Positions 5,889-15,210 of a stretch of DNA of 44,616 nt are shown here, piece by piece. Positions within the stretch are counted from its first letter, which is position 1. Every line of letters begins with the position of its first letter. The DNA comes from Clostridia bacterium (GTDB taxonomy: Bacteria; Bacillota; Clostridia; Oscillospirales; CAG-272): NCBI GenBank assembly GCA_017466375.1, contig JAFTUH010000013.1, forward strand, positions 1-44,616. The letters run 5' to 3'. The notes under the pieces are model-generated. The model searched no databases, was not told the DNA's origin, and worked only from the letters and a program-made list of their open reading frames with translations. Position numbers and translations under genes: made by a program.

Positions 5889-7583
5889 TCATTTCAGATA
5901 CGTCCAGCGCAGACCGTACGTGGTGTAGATAATTGTTTGCGAGCGGACGAACAGGGCGTTCTCGGGATACACGTTGCCGCTGCCCGTCAGAGCCATGGAG
6001 GTCTGATATTTGCCGCGGATTACGGCGATGTGGACGTGGGAGCCGGTAGCACCGCCCGCGACGCCTGCGTGGTAAAAATACTCACCCTGCGCCACAGTCT
6101 GTCCGATGTAGAGATCGCTGACGTTATTGTCGTGCATAAACACAACGGTCATATAATCGATGGTGCCGTCGGCATAAACGACAGGCTCCTTGCTTTCCAG
6201 CCAGACGGTGTTATAGCGGTTGTAGCCGCGGTCGACGCGGACGATTTCGCCTGTGAACGGGGCGAAGACCGCACCCGAGCGCGTCGTGATATCCAGCGCG
6301 TTCTGCTTCTGGTGAGAGAAGTTGTCGTAGTAACCCTGCGTGATCATCATATCCTCCGCAGGATAGATGGCGAATTCATAGCCCTGCTCGTTGACGACCT
6401 CGTCGAATTCGAAAGACCAGAGCTGCTCATAGCCCTCCTCACCGAGCGGGCGGAGCGTGATCGCGTTGCCGTCCTTGCCGGTCTCATTGGAGAGTGCGAG
6501 CGTCGGATCCTTTGCGGAAAGGAGATACCATCCGCGATCGGCAGTGCCCGCATACTGCAGAATGAACTCGGCAGCGTACGGGGAGCTTGCGCTGAACAAA
6601 GCCGCGCTCTGCAGATAATTGAAGCCGAGCAGGCGGTTGTAGCCGCCCTTGGACGCCGAGGAGAACAGGCGGTATGTGCCGTTTTCCGTCTGCTCGACGC
6701 GGAATTTCTGGGAAATATCGTCGGTGCGGGCCCACGTCGTGACTTTTACGCCTTCGTAATCCTGATTGGCACCGTCAACGAATACGTTGAGGCAGCGCTT
6801 TTCACCGGAGACGGTAATTGTGTATTTTCCGTCCGGCAGGGATTTGATCGTGGAGTAGCCCTGCGATTTGATGTAGGCATCCACTTCCTTGTTGTCCTCA
6901 TTCCAAAGAAGGAACTGAACGTCACGGTAGTTGAGAAGCCCCTTCTGCACGAGGGAGAAGGACAGCGTCTGCTCGGAGTCCTTGCACGTAGTATCCAGCG
7001 TGCGGTACAGCATCAGGGTTGCCTGACCGCGTGTGACCTCTTTTTCGTTTTCGGAGCAAATACCGATTTGCTTGCCGATCCTAACGGTATCCTCCAGGGA
7101 AAAACCGGAGCCGTAGCCAAGCGCGTTCAGCATATATTTCATGAACACGGGCGTGGATACGCTGTCGTCGGGGAAGAAAAGTTTACTATCCTCGGATACG
7201 ATGCCGCGGTGAACAAAATAGCCGACGTACGGGCTTCCCCAATCGGGGATATCGATGAATTTGTGCGGATAATTGTTCTGCAGAACGTCGGATTCCTCAC
7301 CGAGCAGGCGGATGACCATGATGATGCATTCAAGGTTGGTGAGAGGACGCTCCAGCGCGAAGTTGATGACACCGTCCACGGTGCCGACGCCGCTCATAAG
7401 ACCGAGGTAGTAGAGGCGCTCAGCGGCCTGTTCTTCTGTGATTTGGGGGTTGACTTTCAGTACGGAGTCAACGGATGTACTGTCGGCGGCAGTATCGGTC
7501 GGCAGGACATCTGCGGCAGTGACCGGCTGCATAAGCAGAAACAGGGAAAGCAGTATGCAGACGGCAGAGTGCAGTTTTCGCAT
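5889..7583 (-). CDS. secreted SLH-domain / ricin-like / M23-like surface protein
   Basis: A 564-residue exported protein of modular build. Residues 1-24 form a signal peptide (basic start, then LLSLFLLMQPVTAADV). Residues ~45-190 resemble S-layer homology repeats (for example PHKFIDIPDWGSPYVGYFVHRG), which would anchor it to wall polymers. Residues ~255-400 look like a ricin-type beta-trefoil (NAITLRPLGEEGYEQLWSFE). The C-terminal ~140 residues match the LytM/M23 fold, with GSHVHI (H516, H518) and D431. The usual first zinc ligand, His four residues before that Asp, is Gln427, and the nearest His is at 424, so catalysis is uncertain. It probably acts in cell-wall binding or remodelling. The promoter is clear and it has its own terminator. 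Confidence 0.8.
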   Translation of the reverse strand: MRKLHSAVCILLSLFLLMQPVTAADVLPTDTAADSTSVDSVLKVNPQITEEQAAERLYYLGLMSGVGTVDGVINFALERPLTNLECIIMVIRLLGEESDVLQNNYPHKFIDIPDWGSPYVGYFVHRGIVSEDSKLFFPDDSVSTPVFMKYMLNALGYGSGFSLEDTVRIGKQIGICSENEKEVTRGQATLMLYRTLDTTCKDSEQTLSFSLVQKGLLNYRDVQFLLWNEDNKEVDAYIKSQGYSTIKSLPDGKYTITVSGEKRCLNVFVDGANQDYEGVKVTTWARTDDISQKFRVEQTENGTYRLFSSASKGGYNRLLGFNYLQSAALFSASSPYAAEFILQYAGTADRGWYLLSAKDPTLALSNETGKDGNAITLRPLGEEGYEQLWSFEFDEVVNEQGYEFAIYPAEDMMITQGYYDNFSHQKQNALDITTRSGAVFAPFTGEIVRVDRGYNRYNTVWLESKEPVVYADGTIDYMTVVFMHDNNVSDLYIGQTVAQGEYFYHAGVAGGATGSHVHIAVIRGKYQTSMALTGSGNVYPENALFVRSQTIIYTTYGLRWTYLK

Positions 7584-12140: not shown

Positions 12141-13247
12141 TTATTTGGCGGTTTCGGAGAGCTTTCGGACAATATCCCGGAAGCGATCGGTGCTTCGGAT
12201 GCTGTCATACCGCTTGTGCTTCAAATGCTCCAGCATATAAAAGCTCTGCGTGTGCTCCGTTAGCTCGTGAAAATCCTTGCTGATTTCGGGATAGACAAGC
12301 TGATCGACCAAGAGCGAGGTGTAGTGTTTGCCGCGATCCTCAAAATACGCTTTGTCGTATGCGAGGGTATGCGTGCACATTTTTTCAAGGGAGGCAAGGG
12401 CGTCCTCCTCTCTGCCGAGCGAGATTTCGTACGTGGAGATGAGCCAGTGGTTCTGTGAAAGCCGGCAGTGATGAAACAGCAGATCTTCTCCGTATATCAT
12501 ACGGTACAGCGCGCCGGATGTCTTCAGAATCTCAATCTTTCTCTCCCATGTGGAGCGATCGTTCGGGAGATCCTCATGCAGTGCCAGCCGCTCAATCGCC
12601 GTGCCCAGACTATCTGTCAGCTTGTCGATTTCATCCTGAATGTACCACTGCGTGTTTCCGTCACCGATACCGCTGGACAGCGCAAGTTCCCGGCGGTATT
12701 TCATCGGCGTGAGAAGGTTTGCCGCCTCACGTGCTTTCTCTGCGCGGTTCGTTTTGCTGTAAATCGCAATCAACGTTGTGATCACATCATAGCGGATGCT
12801 CTCGTCACTGCAATCGCCGATCACCGAACGGCAGAGTGTCTCCGCCTCCGTAAGGAGTGCATCGTCTTTCGTTTCCTCCCACAAGATGTAGAGAGACGTG
12901 GCGAGATCCGCTTTGATTTCCGCATCATTGGGAAAGCGTGCATGGGCATTTCTGGAAAAGGATACTTGCTTCTCCGCGGTGCCGACTTCCGAAAGGCGTG
13001 CCATCTCTTTTTTGATATTTGAAAGTTCTTCTTCTCTCTCGGACAGCTTATACCCGAGCAGCTCATCCGTGCTGACGGAAAAGAAATCGGCAAGGGCGGG
13101 TAGCAGCTCGATGTCAGGGTATCCGCTTTCCGATTCCCAACGGGAGATCGCCTGCGGTGTCACGCCAAGGGCTGTGGCAAGTGTTTCCTGCGTAATACTG
13201 TTTTCTAAACGCAATTTTTTGATAATCGCGCCGATTTTGATAATCAT
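12141..13247 (-). CDS. XRE-family transcriptional regulator with TPR-like C-terminal region
   Basis: A 368-residue DNA-binding protein. Residues ~5-66 form a Cro/C1 helix-turn-helix (ITQETLATALGVTPQAISRWE). The rest is helical, with spaced Leu/Ala patterns suggesting TPR-like repeats, the layout of regulators that sense a peptide or partner protein. The ATG follows GGAGG. It is divergent from the four-gene operon starting at 13489, and both promoters carry a CGAATCA half-site, so it probably regulates itself and that operon. A perfect palindrome, GTAAGCTTAC, lies between its -10 and its start. The ligand is unknown. Confidence 0.85.
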   Translation of the reverse strand: MIIKIGAIIKKLRLENSITQETLATALGVTPQAISRWESESGYPDIELLPALADFFSVSTDELLGYKLSEREEELSNIKKEMARLSEVGTAEKQVSFSRNAHARFPNDAEIKADLATSLYILWEETKDDALLTEAETLCRSVIGDCSDESIRYDVITTLIAIYSKTNRAEKAREAANLLTPMKYRRELALSSGIGDGNTQWYIQDEIDKLTDSLGTAIERLALHEDLPNDRSTWERKIEILKTSGALYRMIYGEDLLFHHCRLSQNHWLISTYEISLGREEDALASLEKMCTHTLAYDKAYFEDRGKHYTSLLVDQLVYPEISKDFHELTEHTQSFYMLEHLKHKRYDSIRSTDRFRDIVRKLSETAK

Positions 13248-13315: not shown

Positions 13316-13400
13316 TGATCAATTCGTTGTTGCGGATGTAAAGGGACGGTTTATAGATCCGGCTCTTTCGCTCTACCATTGGTGGAATGATTAGAAATCT

Positions 13401-13432
13401 GTCGAATCAGTCTTGACAGAAAGTGATTCGAC
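13401..13432. promoter_or_regulatory. 9-bp inverted repeat over the -35 of the divergent operon
   Basis: GTCGAATCA (13401-13409) and TGATTCGAC (13424-13432) form a perfect 9-bp inverted repeat with a 14-nt spacer centred on the TTGACA box. This is the placement of a repressor operator. The likely binder is the adjacent XRE regulator or the ArsR-type protein encoded in the operon. Confidence 0.6.
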
Positions 13433-13441
13433 GTGTATCAT
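13413..13441 (+). promoter_or_regulatory. promoter of the four-gene unknown operon
   Basis: TTGACA, a 17-nt spacer and TATCAT, 48 bp before the first start codon; overlapped by the inverted repeat at 13401-13432. Confidence 0.75.
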
Positions 13442-13488: not shown

Positions 13489-13995
13489 ATGACCTATTTG
13501 GAAATCGATCAAGCGATTGTGGATATCACGCGGCAGATGTGTGCCGAGTGCAAAGTTAGACTGGATGCGATCCCGAAGGAGAACGGTACGGAGCGAAAAG
13601 CGGTTCAACTGGAATACGGGATGTACACGTTCTGCGGAAATGCGGGTGTGCTGTTTAATACCGTTGGCAAGCGAGAAGACGGTCTCCGGAGGAGACAGAC
13701 TTTTTTGAAAAGGTATCTGTCCCGCTGTCCGGAGCTGCAAGGTTTGTACGAATCTCTTGGAGATGACGAAAAAATGCGCTTCCTTGCCGCATGGCAGGCG
13801 GAATTGTTCATCCGCGATCAGTGGCTGGATGCACAAACGGCAGATCTTGCCGCCGCCGAGACGGCAGGAGATGCAAAAAGCGTATTTGAACTGAAAATCA
13901 AAATCGGTGCGGTGCGGAATATGTTCGCCGCATGGGAAGCGTGGCGTGCGGAAAACGGTGTGTATCCGCATCTGTTTGAGGAGGGAAGTATATGA
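13489..13995 (+). CDS. unknown protein A of a tandem paralogous pair
   Basis: Not recognised. The 168-residue soluble protein appears mostly helical, with no signal peptide or membrane segment. The start at 13489 follows AAAGGAAA at ~7 nt and an in-frame ATG at 13423 lies inside the promoter -10 area, so it was rejected. Shared landmarks with the next gene occur in the same order: RLDA (24 here, 20 there), EY (42/41), a Gly after an aromatic run (50/51), LYE (86/92), DDEK (92/98) and a C-terminal Trp within acidic helix (149/154). This suggests tandem duplication and divergence. It ends in an ATGA overlap with protein B. Confidence 0.7.
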   Translation: MTYLEIDQAIVDITRQMCAECKVRLDAIPKENGTERKAVQLEYGMYTFCGNAGVLFNTVGKREDGLRRRQTFLKRYLSRCPELQGLYESLGDDEKMRFLAAWQAELFIRDQWLDAQTADLAAAETAGDAKSVFELKIKIGAVRNMFAAWEAWRAENGVYPHLFEEGSI

Positions 13996-14480
13996 GCGGT
14001 TCGGGATTTTATACGATTGCCATTCGCGCAATAAACGCGGAAACCGCACGGCTTGACGCCTTCTGTGAGGCGCTGGATAAGAATCCGACGGAGAAGAAAC
14101 AGCAGATCGTCGAGTACAAACGTGCAAAGTACAGATATGCCGGTGTGACGAATGTTTGGTGTGCGGTTTATAACGCATACAGAACGAGAGCGCGGAATGC
14201 CGCTACCCATTATCTGCCCAAGTGGGTGGATGCGGTATTTGTGCGTAATTCCGCGTACGTATCTTTGTATGAAAACGCGGCTGATGACGAAAAGCCGGAC
14301 TATGCGCTGTACTACGGTGCGTCAGCTCTTGCAGAGGAGAAGATCGCGGATCTTTCGGCAAAAATTCCCCTTGCTACCGACTGGGAGAGGGTCGAGCTTG
14401 AAGAACGGCTCGGCGGACTTCGCTTTGCCAAGTCATGCATGGACGAGGCGTGGGAGCAGCGGAAGGATGTGATCGGATGA
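13992..14480 (+). CDS. unknown protein B of a tandem paralogous pair
   Basis: Not recognised. A 162-residue helical, soluble protein whose order of conserved landmarks matches that of protein A, including LYENAADDEK against LYESLGDDEK. It is rich in Tyr, Trp and Arg in the middle (YRYAGVTNVWCAVYNAYRTR), which could indicate a nucleic-acid or partner-binding surface, but this is speculative. Its ATG overlaps the stop of protein A (ATGA) with GAGGGA upstream, and its own stop overlaps the next start in the same way. Together the pair may form a heterodimer. Confidence 0.7.
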   Translation: MSGSGFYTIAIRAINAETARLDAFCEALDKNPTEKKQQIVEYKRAKYRYAGVTNVWCAVYNAYRTRARNAATHYLPKWVDAVFVRNSAYVSLYENAADDEKPDYALYYGASALAEEKIADLSAKIPLATDWERVELEERLGGLRFAKSCMDEAWEQRKDVIG

Positions 14481-15013
14481 AAGAAAAACTGGCTTTGCTC
14501 AAGCTTCTTGCCGATGAAACGCGGCTGGAAATTCTGAACATCCTGCTCAAGGAAGATTCCTACGTCGAAAAGCTGGCGTGCGAGCTATCCCTGACACCGG
14601 CGACGGTTTGTTACCATCTCAAAAAGATGGAGTCGGCGGGCGTAGTCAACTGCTCGCGATCGCAGTTCTATATGATCTATTCTGTAAATCGGGCGATTTT
14701 TGATAAGCCGCTGTACGAGCTGATCAAAAAGGACGATGCCGTCGTGGATACGGAGGAGAAATACAAAAAAGAAGTGCTTTCGCACTTCTTCAGATACGGG
14801 AAACTCACGCATTTGCCCACGCAGAGAAGGAAACGGGAGATCGTGCTTTGTGAAATTGCGGGGCGGTTTGAGCCGGGACGGCGGTACACGGAAAAAGAGG
14901 TCAATGAAATCATTCACGCGATCCATGACGATCACTGCACCGTCCGCCGGGAAATGATCGCCTGCGGACTGATGGCGCGTGAAAGAGAGATGTACTGGAT
15001 ACTGCAAAAATGA
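14477..15013 (+). CDS. ArsR-type HTH regulator with C-terminal DUF2087 domain
   Basis: A 178-residue probable transcription factor. Residues ~1-75 form an ArsR-like winged helix (LLADETRLEILNILLKEDSY, then TPATVCYHLKKMESAGVV as recognition helix). Residues ~105-178 match DUF2087 (KLTHLPTQRRKREIVLCEIA ... RRYTEKEVNEIIHAIHDDHC), a small domain found on bacterial regulators. No metal-binding Cys pair of classical ArsR (ELCVCDL) is present, so the signal is unlikely to be a metal at that site. The start at 14477 overlaps the previous stop (ATGA) with GGAAGGA upstream; the longer frame from 14435 was rejected. Confidence 0.85.
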   Translation: MKEKLALLKLLADETRLEILNILLKEDSYVEKLACELSLTPATVCYHLKKMESAGVVNCSRSQFYMIYSVNRAIFDKPLYELIKKDDAVVDTEEKYKKEVLSHFFRYGKLTHLPTQRRKREIVLCEIAGRFEPGRRYTEKEVNEIIHAIHDDHCTVRREMIACGLMAREREMYWILQK

Positions 15014-15210
15014 ATCGGATTACAATTTCGGAAAAGATACGGCACTACCGCCGTGAGCGCGGTCTGACGCAGAAGGAGTTCGGGGAGATTATCGGTGTCT
15101 CGCCGCAGGCAATTTCCAAATGGGAGCGGTGCGAGTGTTATCCGGATATCACCTTTCTGCCGGAGATTGCGAAACTACTGTCTTGTGATATAAACGATTT
15201 TTTTGGATGA
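15010..15210 (+). CDS. small XRE-family helix-turn-helix protein
   Basis: A 66-residue protein that is almost entirely a Cro/C1 HTH (GLTQKEFGEIIGVSPQAISKWERC), followed by the ITFLPEIAKLLSCDINDFFG tail typical of short XRE proteins. It overlaps the preceding gene by ATGA, completing three consecutive four-base overlaps. It probably binds DNA as a dimer and could antagonise or cooperate with the larger XRE protein encoded divergently. It is the last gene of the operon; a long stem-loop terminator follows. Confidence 0.85.
   Translation: MNRITISEKIRHYRRERGLTQKEFGEIIGVSPQAISKWERCECYPDITFLPEIAKLLSCDINDFFG

Follow-up and report, generated by a model that had tools for sequence, protein, structure and literature searches.

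Four overlapping genes, A to D, in a 44,616-nucleotide contig of a Clostridia bacterium (JAFTUH010000013.1; the whole stretch that was analysed is called the window here) make up a conserved operon, best explained as a small, horizontally exchanged and self-regulated effector-repressor unit, a reading that we hold with about even confidence. The preliminary description of the window had named an operon of two helical and two DNA-binding proteins and proposed that it belongs to a self-contained switch. Our comparisons show that this unit is indeed conserved, and from its operator we infer that it is autoregulated.

Organization of the operon

All three internal junctions of the operon (Table 1) are ATGA overlaps (A/B, 13992-13995; B/C, 14477-14480; C/D, 15010-15013), so that the reading frames and overlaps described beforehand were confirmed. 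The same is true of the ArsR-HTH/DUF2087 and XRE assignments of the last two products. In Pfam, protein C matches ArsR HTH_5 (PF01022, 2.3e-12, 47 bits for a cut-off of 22) and, as its second domain, DUF2087 (PF09860, 1.8e-25, 89.3 bits for a cut-off of 22.4), and protein D matches HTH_3 (PF01381, 3.1e-12, 46.8 bits for a cut-off of 23). Below their cut-offs, C matches the SdpR model of NCBIfam (8.7e-13, 48 bits, cut-off 100) and the HTH of D finds its best NCBIfam match in the MqsA antitoxin family. Compared with the PADLOC models of known anti-phage systems, A and B are without any match, and D aligns only with the HTH segments of RmrA and further models. The matches of C are mostly to HTH segments of Csa3 and of CARF-type models; a single Csa3 model spans residues 7-174 at 41 bits, C itself having no CARF domain.

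Table 1. Genes and regulatory elements of the operon, in window positions
Feature	Coordinates	Strand	Description
Palindrome TCTACCATTGGTGGA, core ACCATTGGT at 13375-13383	13372..13386	+	Proposed D site
Inverted repeat TGATTAGA-N6-TCGAATCA	13388..13409	+	Upstream of the -35 box, conserved across loci; proposed C site
Second inverted repeat GTCGAATCA-N14-TGATTCGAC	13401..13432	+	Encloses the -35 box
Sigma-70/A-type promoter TTGACA-17-TATCAT	13413..13441	+	Near-consensus (11/12 matches), conserved across loci
Gene A	13489..13995	+	168 aa, all-helical, new family, without family match
Gene B	13992..14480	+	162 aa, all-helical, probable paralogue of A, without family match
Gene C	14477..15013	+	178 aa, ArsR-type winged-helix plus DUF2087 regulator, core of the module
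Gene D	15010..15210	+	66 aa, XRE/Cro-type DNA-binding protein, bare XRE domain

About 70 loci, among them some that represent the same genome twice, were annotated with HMMs and gave 31 A-B-C-D, 17 A-C, 10 A-C-D and 6 B-C-D arrangements, together with the rarer forms A-BB-C-D, B-A-C-D and AB fusion-C-D (two of each); two more are cut by contig ends. C is present at every locus whose contig continues, A and B are interchangeable before it, and D follows it at most loci. Four-base overlaps are the commonest class at the A>B, B>C and C>D junctions and are tied with short gaps at A>C. Since dozens of species have the operon and four-base overlaps are commonest at nearly every junction type, its arrangement is beyond chance, and the conserved gene order supposed in the preliminary description is not a property of one genome. 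The idea that the proteins are made in a fixed ratio finds no support as a general rule, many loci consisting only of A-C, A-C-D or B-C-D. In three species a YkgJ-like Cys-cluster protein (CxxxCxxCC) is encoded in or before the operon (L041:4353-4811, L044:4390-4812 and L052:3529-4128); two of the three lack A and carry the insert between B and C.

Distribution

When 84,980 species genomes were scanned with a pattern for B, 34 loci were recovered, all of them in metagenome assemblies of Clostridia or Oscillospiraceae; the sample names seen for these loci refer to hindgut sites in deer, sheep, goat and buffalo. Within the window's own family, C was found in 71 and A in 66 of 295 genomes, and every genome with A also has C (Fisher p about 2e-60, relatedness not corrected). 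Both genes lie nearly always on the same contig and strand, at a distance of a few bases to about 1 kb. Outside the family but within the class, A was found in none of 290 genomes and C (E<=1e-20) in one of 340. Among the genomes sampled, the module is confined to one taxonomic family.

Within the genus, the operon is present in three genomes (G000, G001 and G004) and was not found in two (G002 and G003); such a patchy occurrence is that of an accessory element. One of the two, G002 (thiI 87% identical), has between the same flanks a 171-aa ORF instead of A-D plus gene R, which encodes an XRE-TPR protein (12141-13247, minus strand) and is divergent from A. This ORF (L184:7755-8270), located between the gene of a 259-aa protein and thiI, encodes a protein resembling the GrpB/UPF0157 family. 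Searches for phage, plasmid or viral relatives of the module gave no matches, and neither RNA elements nor a tRNA integration site were found at the locus. The annotated flanking genes in the window are mostly housekeeping genes and do not form a defence island; further upstream, a 564-aa protein (positions 5889-7583) has a ricin-type lectin domain and resembles M23 peptidases weakly.

More distant pairs were found through the outgroup in three other families of the same order. In the four genomes concerned (G647, G740, G800 and G803), a 123-aa protein is encoded directly before an ArsR-DUF2087 protein, with an ATGA overlap of the two genes in 4/4 cases. The match of its C-terminal region to A (P 3e-4, score 28.2; ten block shuffles reached at most 16.9) is suggestive of homology, and because such A-like/ArsR-DUF2087 pairs exist in other families, the A-C pair is probably older than the four-gene operon. 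At the G647 locus, the A-like gene is itself overlapped by an M29-type aminopeptidase gene (L187:132-1124). ArsR-DUF2087 proteins of Priestia, Paenibacillus, Peribacillus and Deinococcus plasmids have the same two domains and are 27-34% identical to the G647 outgroup protein; the four that we looked at differ from the operon in having no evident A- or B-like neighbour among the annotated genes, the gene standing alone or by unrelated genes. DUF2087 seems to be a general C-terminal domain of different regulators. In other Clostridia (L059-L069) it is either joined in one chain with a Cys-rich domain and a LuxR-like HTH or makes up a protein of its own of about 95 aa.

Proteins A and B

Profile searches of A and B led to no characterised family, in agreement with their earlier description as helical proteins of no known family: neither has a match in Pfam or PADLOC at E<=1, nor an NCBIfam match near the cut-off. 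Scans of every member of the deeper A and B alignments gave only scattered weak matches in Pfam, NCBIfam, PADLOC and PHROGs, the best of which (7e-4, 3/27 members) is to a PHROG without function. A weak first match for A, L022, was discarded, as it sits in a HAD-phosphatase-like ORF. The AlphaFold models of A (pLDDT 93.3) and B (pLDDT 95.9) have a common order of six helices, two long, two short and two long. Foldseek comparison of the models with the PDB gave nothing at E<=0.001, and a viral structure library gave no match. The best VIA-align hits, HscB for A (Z 5.8, 87 residues, rmsd 3.6) and a designed immunogen for B (Z 6.5, 88 residues, rmsd 3.9), are in the chance range for helical bundles. 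The predicted fold is hence without a clear known match, which does not by itself prove it new. The searches of Pfam, NCBIfam, PADLOC, PHROG and the PDB revealed no sign of a toxin, nuclease or enzyme in A or B, a result still compatible with a new toxin, and neither protein has a membrane-like segment (highest 19-residue hydropathy 0.77 for A and 0.51 for B).

That A and B are tandem paralogues, as first described, is likely from their profiles and models, with sequence evidence that is itself only suggestive. Their profiles align in register but weakly (hhalign, P 0.011); a second profile comparison gave P 0.0036 locally and P 0.0096 over the full length (1-161 versus 5-167), with 1/12 block shuffles scoring equally high. 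It is this in-register match, together with the agreeing helix layouts and the mutual replacement of both genes before C, that makes common descent likely.

Fusion and reassortment

Natural single-chain A-B fusions occur in two species (L169 and L170), and a B-B fusion was found at L050/L174, which suggests that A and B physically associate. Parts of the operon are also exchanged between lineages. C of L032 is 94-95% identical to C of L167, L027 and L028, whereas the A proteins of the same loci are only 25-29% identical (95% for C versus 29% for A in the comparison with L167). Similarly, L026 and L029 have a dS of 0.02 for C, 1.7 for B and 2.6 for D. In a Mantel comparison of pairwise distances, A shows no correlation with B (rho 0.12, p 0.08); correlated distances were found for C with D (0.52), for A with D (0.49) and for B with C (0.48). 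By sequence comparison, the parts of the operon reassort, the A and B lineages included. The dN/dS values of A and B are low, mostly 0.06-0.25, without sign of positive selection, so that diversity comes mainly from allele replacement. The B gene of L032 (3902-4489) looks chimeric in comparison with L026 and L039, its N-terminal part belonging to one B lineage and its C-terminal part to another, which suggests recombination inside the gene.

A conserved promoter-operator

The promoter-operator before gene A (13372-13441) is the most conserved DNA compared at the locus, above gene A itself. In pairs of loci whose A proteins are less than 35% identical, its mean identity is 74%, for 53% in A DNA, 64% in C DNA and 50% in the preceding DNA. 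The -35 box TTGACA lies at 13413-13418 and the -10 box TATCAT, which is TATAAT in most relatives, at 13436-13441. The -35 box lies between paired TGATTAGA/TCKAATCA half-sites; the half-site TGATTCGA is found between both boxes (13424-13431). A repeat search showed that the arms of the second inverted repeat (13401-13409 and 13424-13432) are 9 nt long and 100% complementary. A dimeric HTH repressor would be expected to use inverted repeats of half-sites placed, as here, upstream of and across the -35 box, and the conserved operator overlaps the operon's own promoter, the sequence layout of an autoregulated operon.

The palindrome follows the presence of D. The exact ACC-N3-GGT core, with a chance of about 3% per region, was found in 39/45 upstream regions of loci with D and in 3/19 of those scored as D-less. 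Two of these three exceptions (L035 and L041) are contig ends, and the third (L164) has an ORF resembling a frame-shifted D after C. Indeed, in the A-C loci whose contig runs on without any trace of D, the core is absent (16/16). This co-variation links the palindrome with D and the TGATTAGA sites with C; because the D-less loci belong mostly to one clade, the link between D and the palindrome may rest on few events.

Close copies of the operator were found at the operon only. In the window's own 2.19-Mb genome, the C-type operator with up to two mismatches occurs at one place, the operon. Across 13 genomes, every match with up to one mismatch lies at the operon and none away from it, a count that takes in a contig end apparently leading into the operon contig (G006:C22:108-129). 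Other two-mismatch matches in these genomes are few and, in most genomes, close to the control with the reversed pattern. A compound operator pattern with up to three mismatches retrieved only two additional sites, both poor, and a strict 58-base pattern with fixed spacing was set aside, as it missed even the window's own site. The circuit thus seems to regulate only itself, although more degenerate sites may exist; with its only close operator matches at the operon, its output would be A and B themselves.

Discussion

In the mechanism that we favour, C, as a dimeric ArsR-type protein, would bind the TGATTAGA/TCKAATCA half-sites around the -35 box, D would bind the adjacent ACCATTGGT palindrome, and both together would hold the near-consensus promoter shut. 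A and B would be made in step with C through translational coupling and would associate with each other, probably also with C, their state setting how much C stays on the operator. They are most likely effectors of a stress-, toxin- or defence-like kind, the synthesis of which would rise upon release of the repressors. The replacement of A next to a nearly constant C argues against a highly specific A-C interface. Points against an effector-repressor operon are the lack of a toxin, nuclease or enzyme signature and of a clear fold, the lack of phage or plasmid relatives, and the housekeeping flanks. A role of the module in defence, stress or signalling is possible. More tentatively, and with the chances rather against it, the operon could be a new kind of mobile module for immunity or stress, with exchangeable all-helical cassettes (A, B, A-B or B-B) before a constant ArsR-DUF2087 repressor and an optional XRE repressor that has its own operator; a phage or stress signal acting on A and B would then free this operon only.

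Parts of this circuit have known counterparts. In the SdpRI system of Bacillus subtilis, the partner SdpI sequesters the ArsR-family autorepressor SdpR (PMC1626106). On our reading, both systems join an ArsR-type autorepressor and a partner encoded with it in a one-operon feedback circuit. In contrast, SdpI is a membrane protein, whereas A and B have neither a membrane-like segment nor a Pfam match; the gene order also differs, and C has an added DUF2087. The WYL-type regulators BrxR and CapW (PMC9122601, PMC9122588), which hold defence operons in check, are likewise dedicated repressors that stand by uncharacterised or harmful effectors and act on the promoter of the operon itself, but here the regulators belong to other families, there is no known defence effector, and the window offers no defence-island neighbourhood. 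A literature search, beyond the reach of which lay most subscription papers, returned nothing on this operon.

The alternative that survives best, which we nevertheless consider doubtful, is that A and B have no effector role and are sensors or co-regulators that bind a small molecule and alter the binding of C, the targets being unlinked genes with degenerate operators. This would account for the small A-like protein directly before the ArsR-DUF2087 gene at all four loci of the other families, for a constant C with varying partners, and for the absence of a recognisable catalytic family in A and B. The operator searches speak against it, since no match with up to one mismatch was found away from the operon in the 13 genomes and two-mismatch sites were few and near the control. 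Furthermore, a sensor that controls its own synthesis alone has no evident use.

Small, overlapping and co-oriented genes with a downstream HTH partner are also the layout of a reverse-order type II toxin-antitoxin system such as higBA or mqsRA, in which case A and/or B would be toxins and C, with D, the antitoxin and autorepressor. The likeness to these systems (PMC6987408, PMC6918082) extends to an uncharacterised or toxin gene in first and an HTH gene in second place, to a patchy occurrence, and to autorepression from one operator region, which is presumed here. The operator over a near-consensus promoter, the turnover of the slot and the MqsA match of D, below cut-off as it is, fit as well. 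We still find this reading unlikely: no toxin fold or family was found in A or B, C consists of an ordinary ArsR HTH and DUF2087 instead of MqsA or HigA and has no recognisable toxin-neutralising domain, and A or B is dispensable provided that one of them remains. The operon also often encodes two helical and two DNA-binding proteins and has two operator types, unlike higBA and mqsRA.

The weakest reading is the one of the preliminary description, which counted five genes and three regulators. As an integral part of the switch, R would sense a signal and control the operon. In its favour, the promoters of R and A face away from each other, the space taken up by R and A-D is occupied in the sister species by another gene, and a few other modules have a long XRE protein nearby. 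At none of the other loci analysed, however, is there a homologue of R beyond its HTH, and most modules have no long XRE neighbour, which makes this very improbable and led us to reject R as a conserved fifth gene and to regard it as a local neighbour. XRE-TPR regulators are common.

A and B represent two protein families that none of the searched libraries annotates, and DUF2087 regulators gain with them a consistent genetic partner and a candidate operator. With close operator matches at the operon only, a short fragment carrying the promoter would be expected to be repressed by C and D, with A and B as the sole output. If A and B are effectors, the operon would be a new self-controlled module of gut Clostridia that evolves through swaps of its effector genes.
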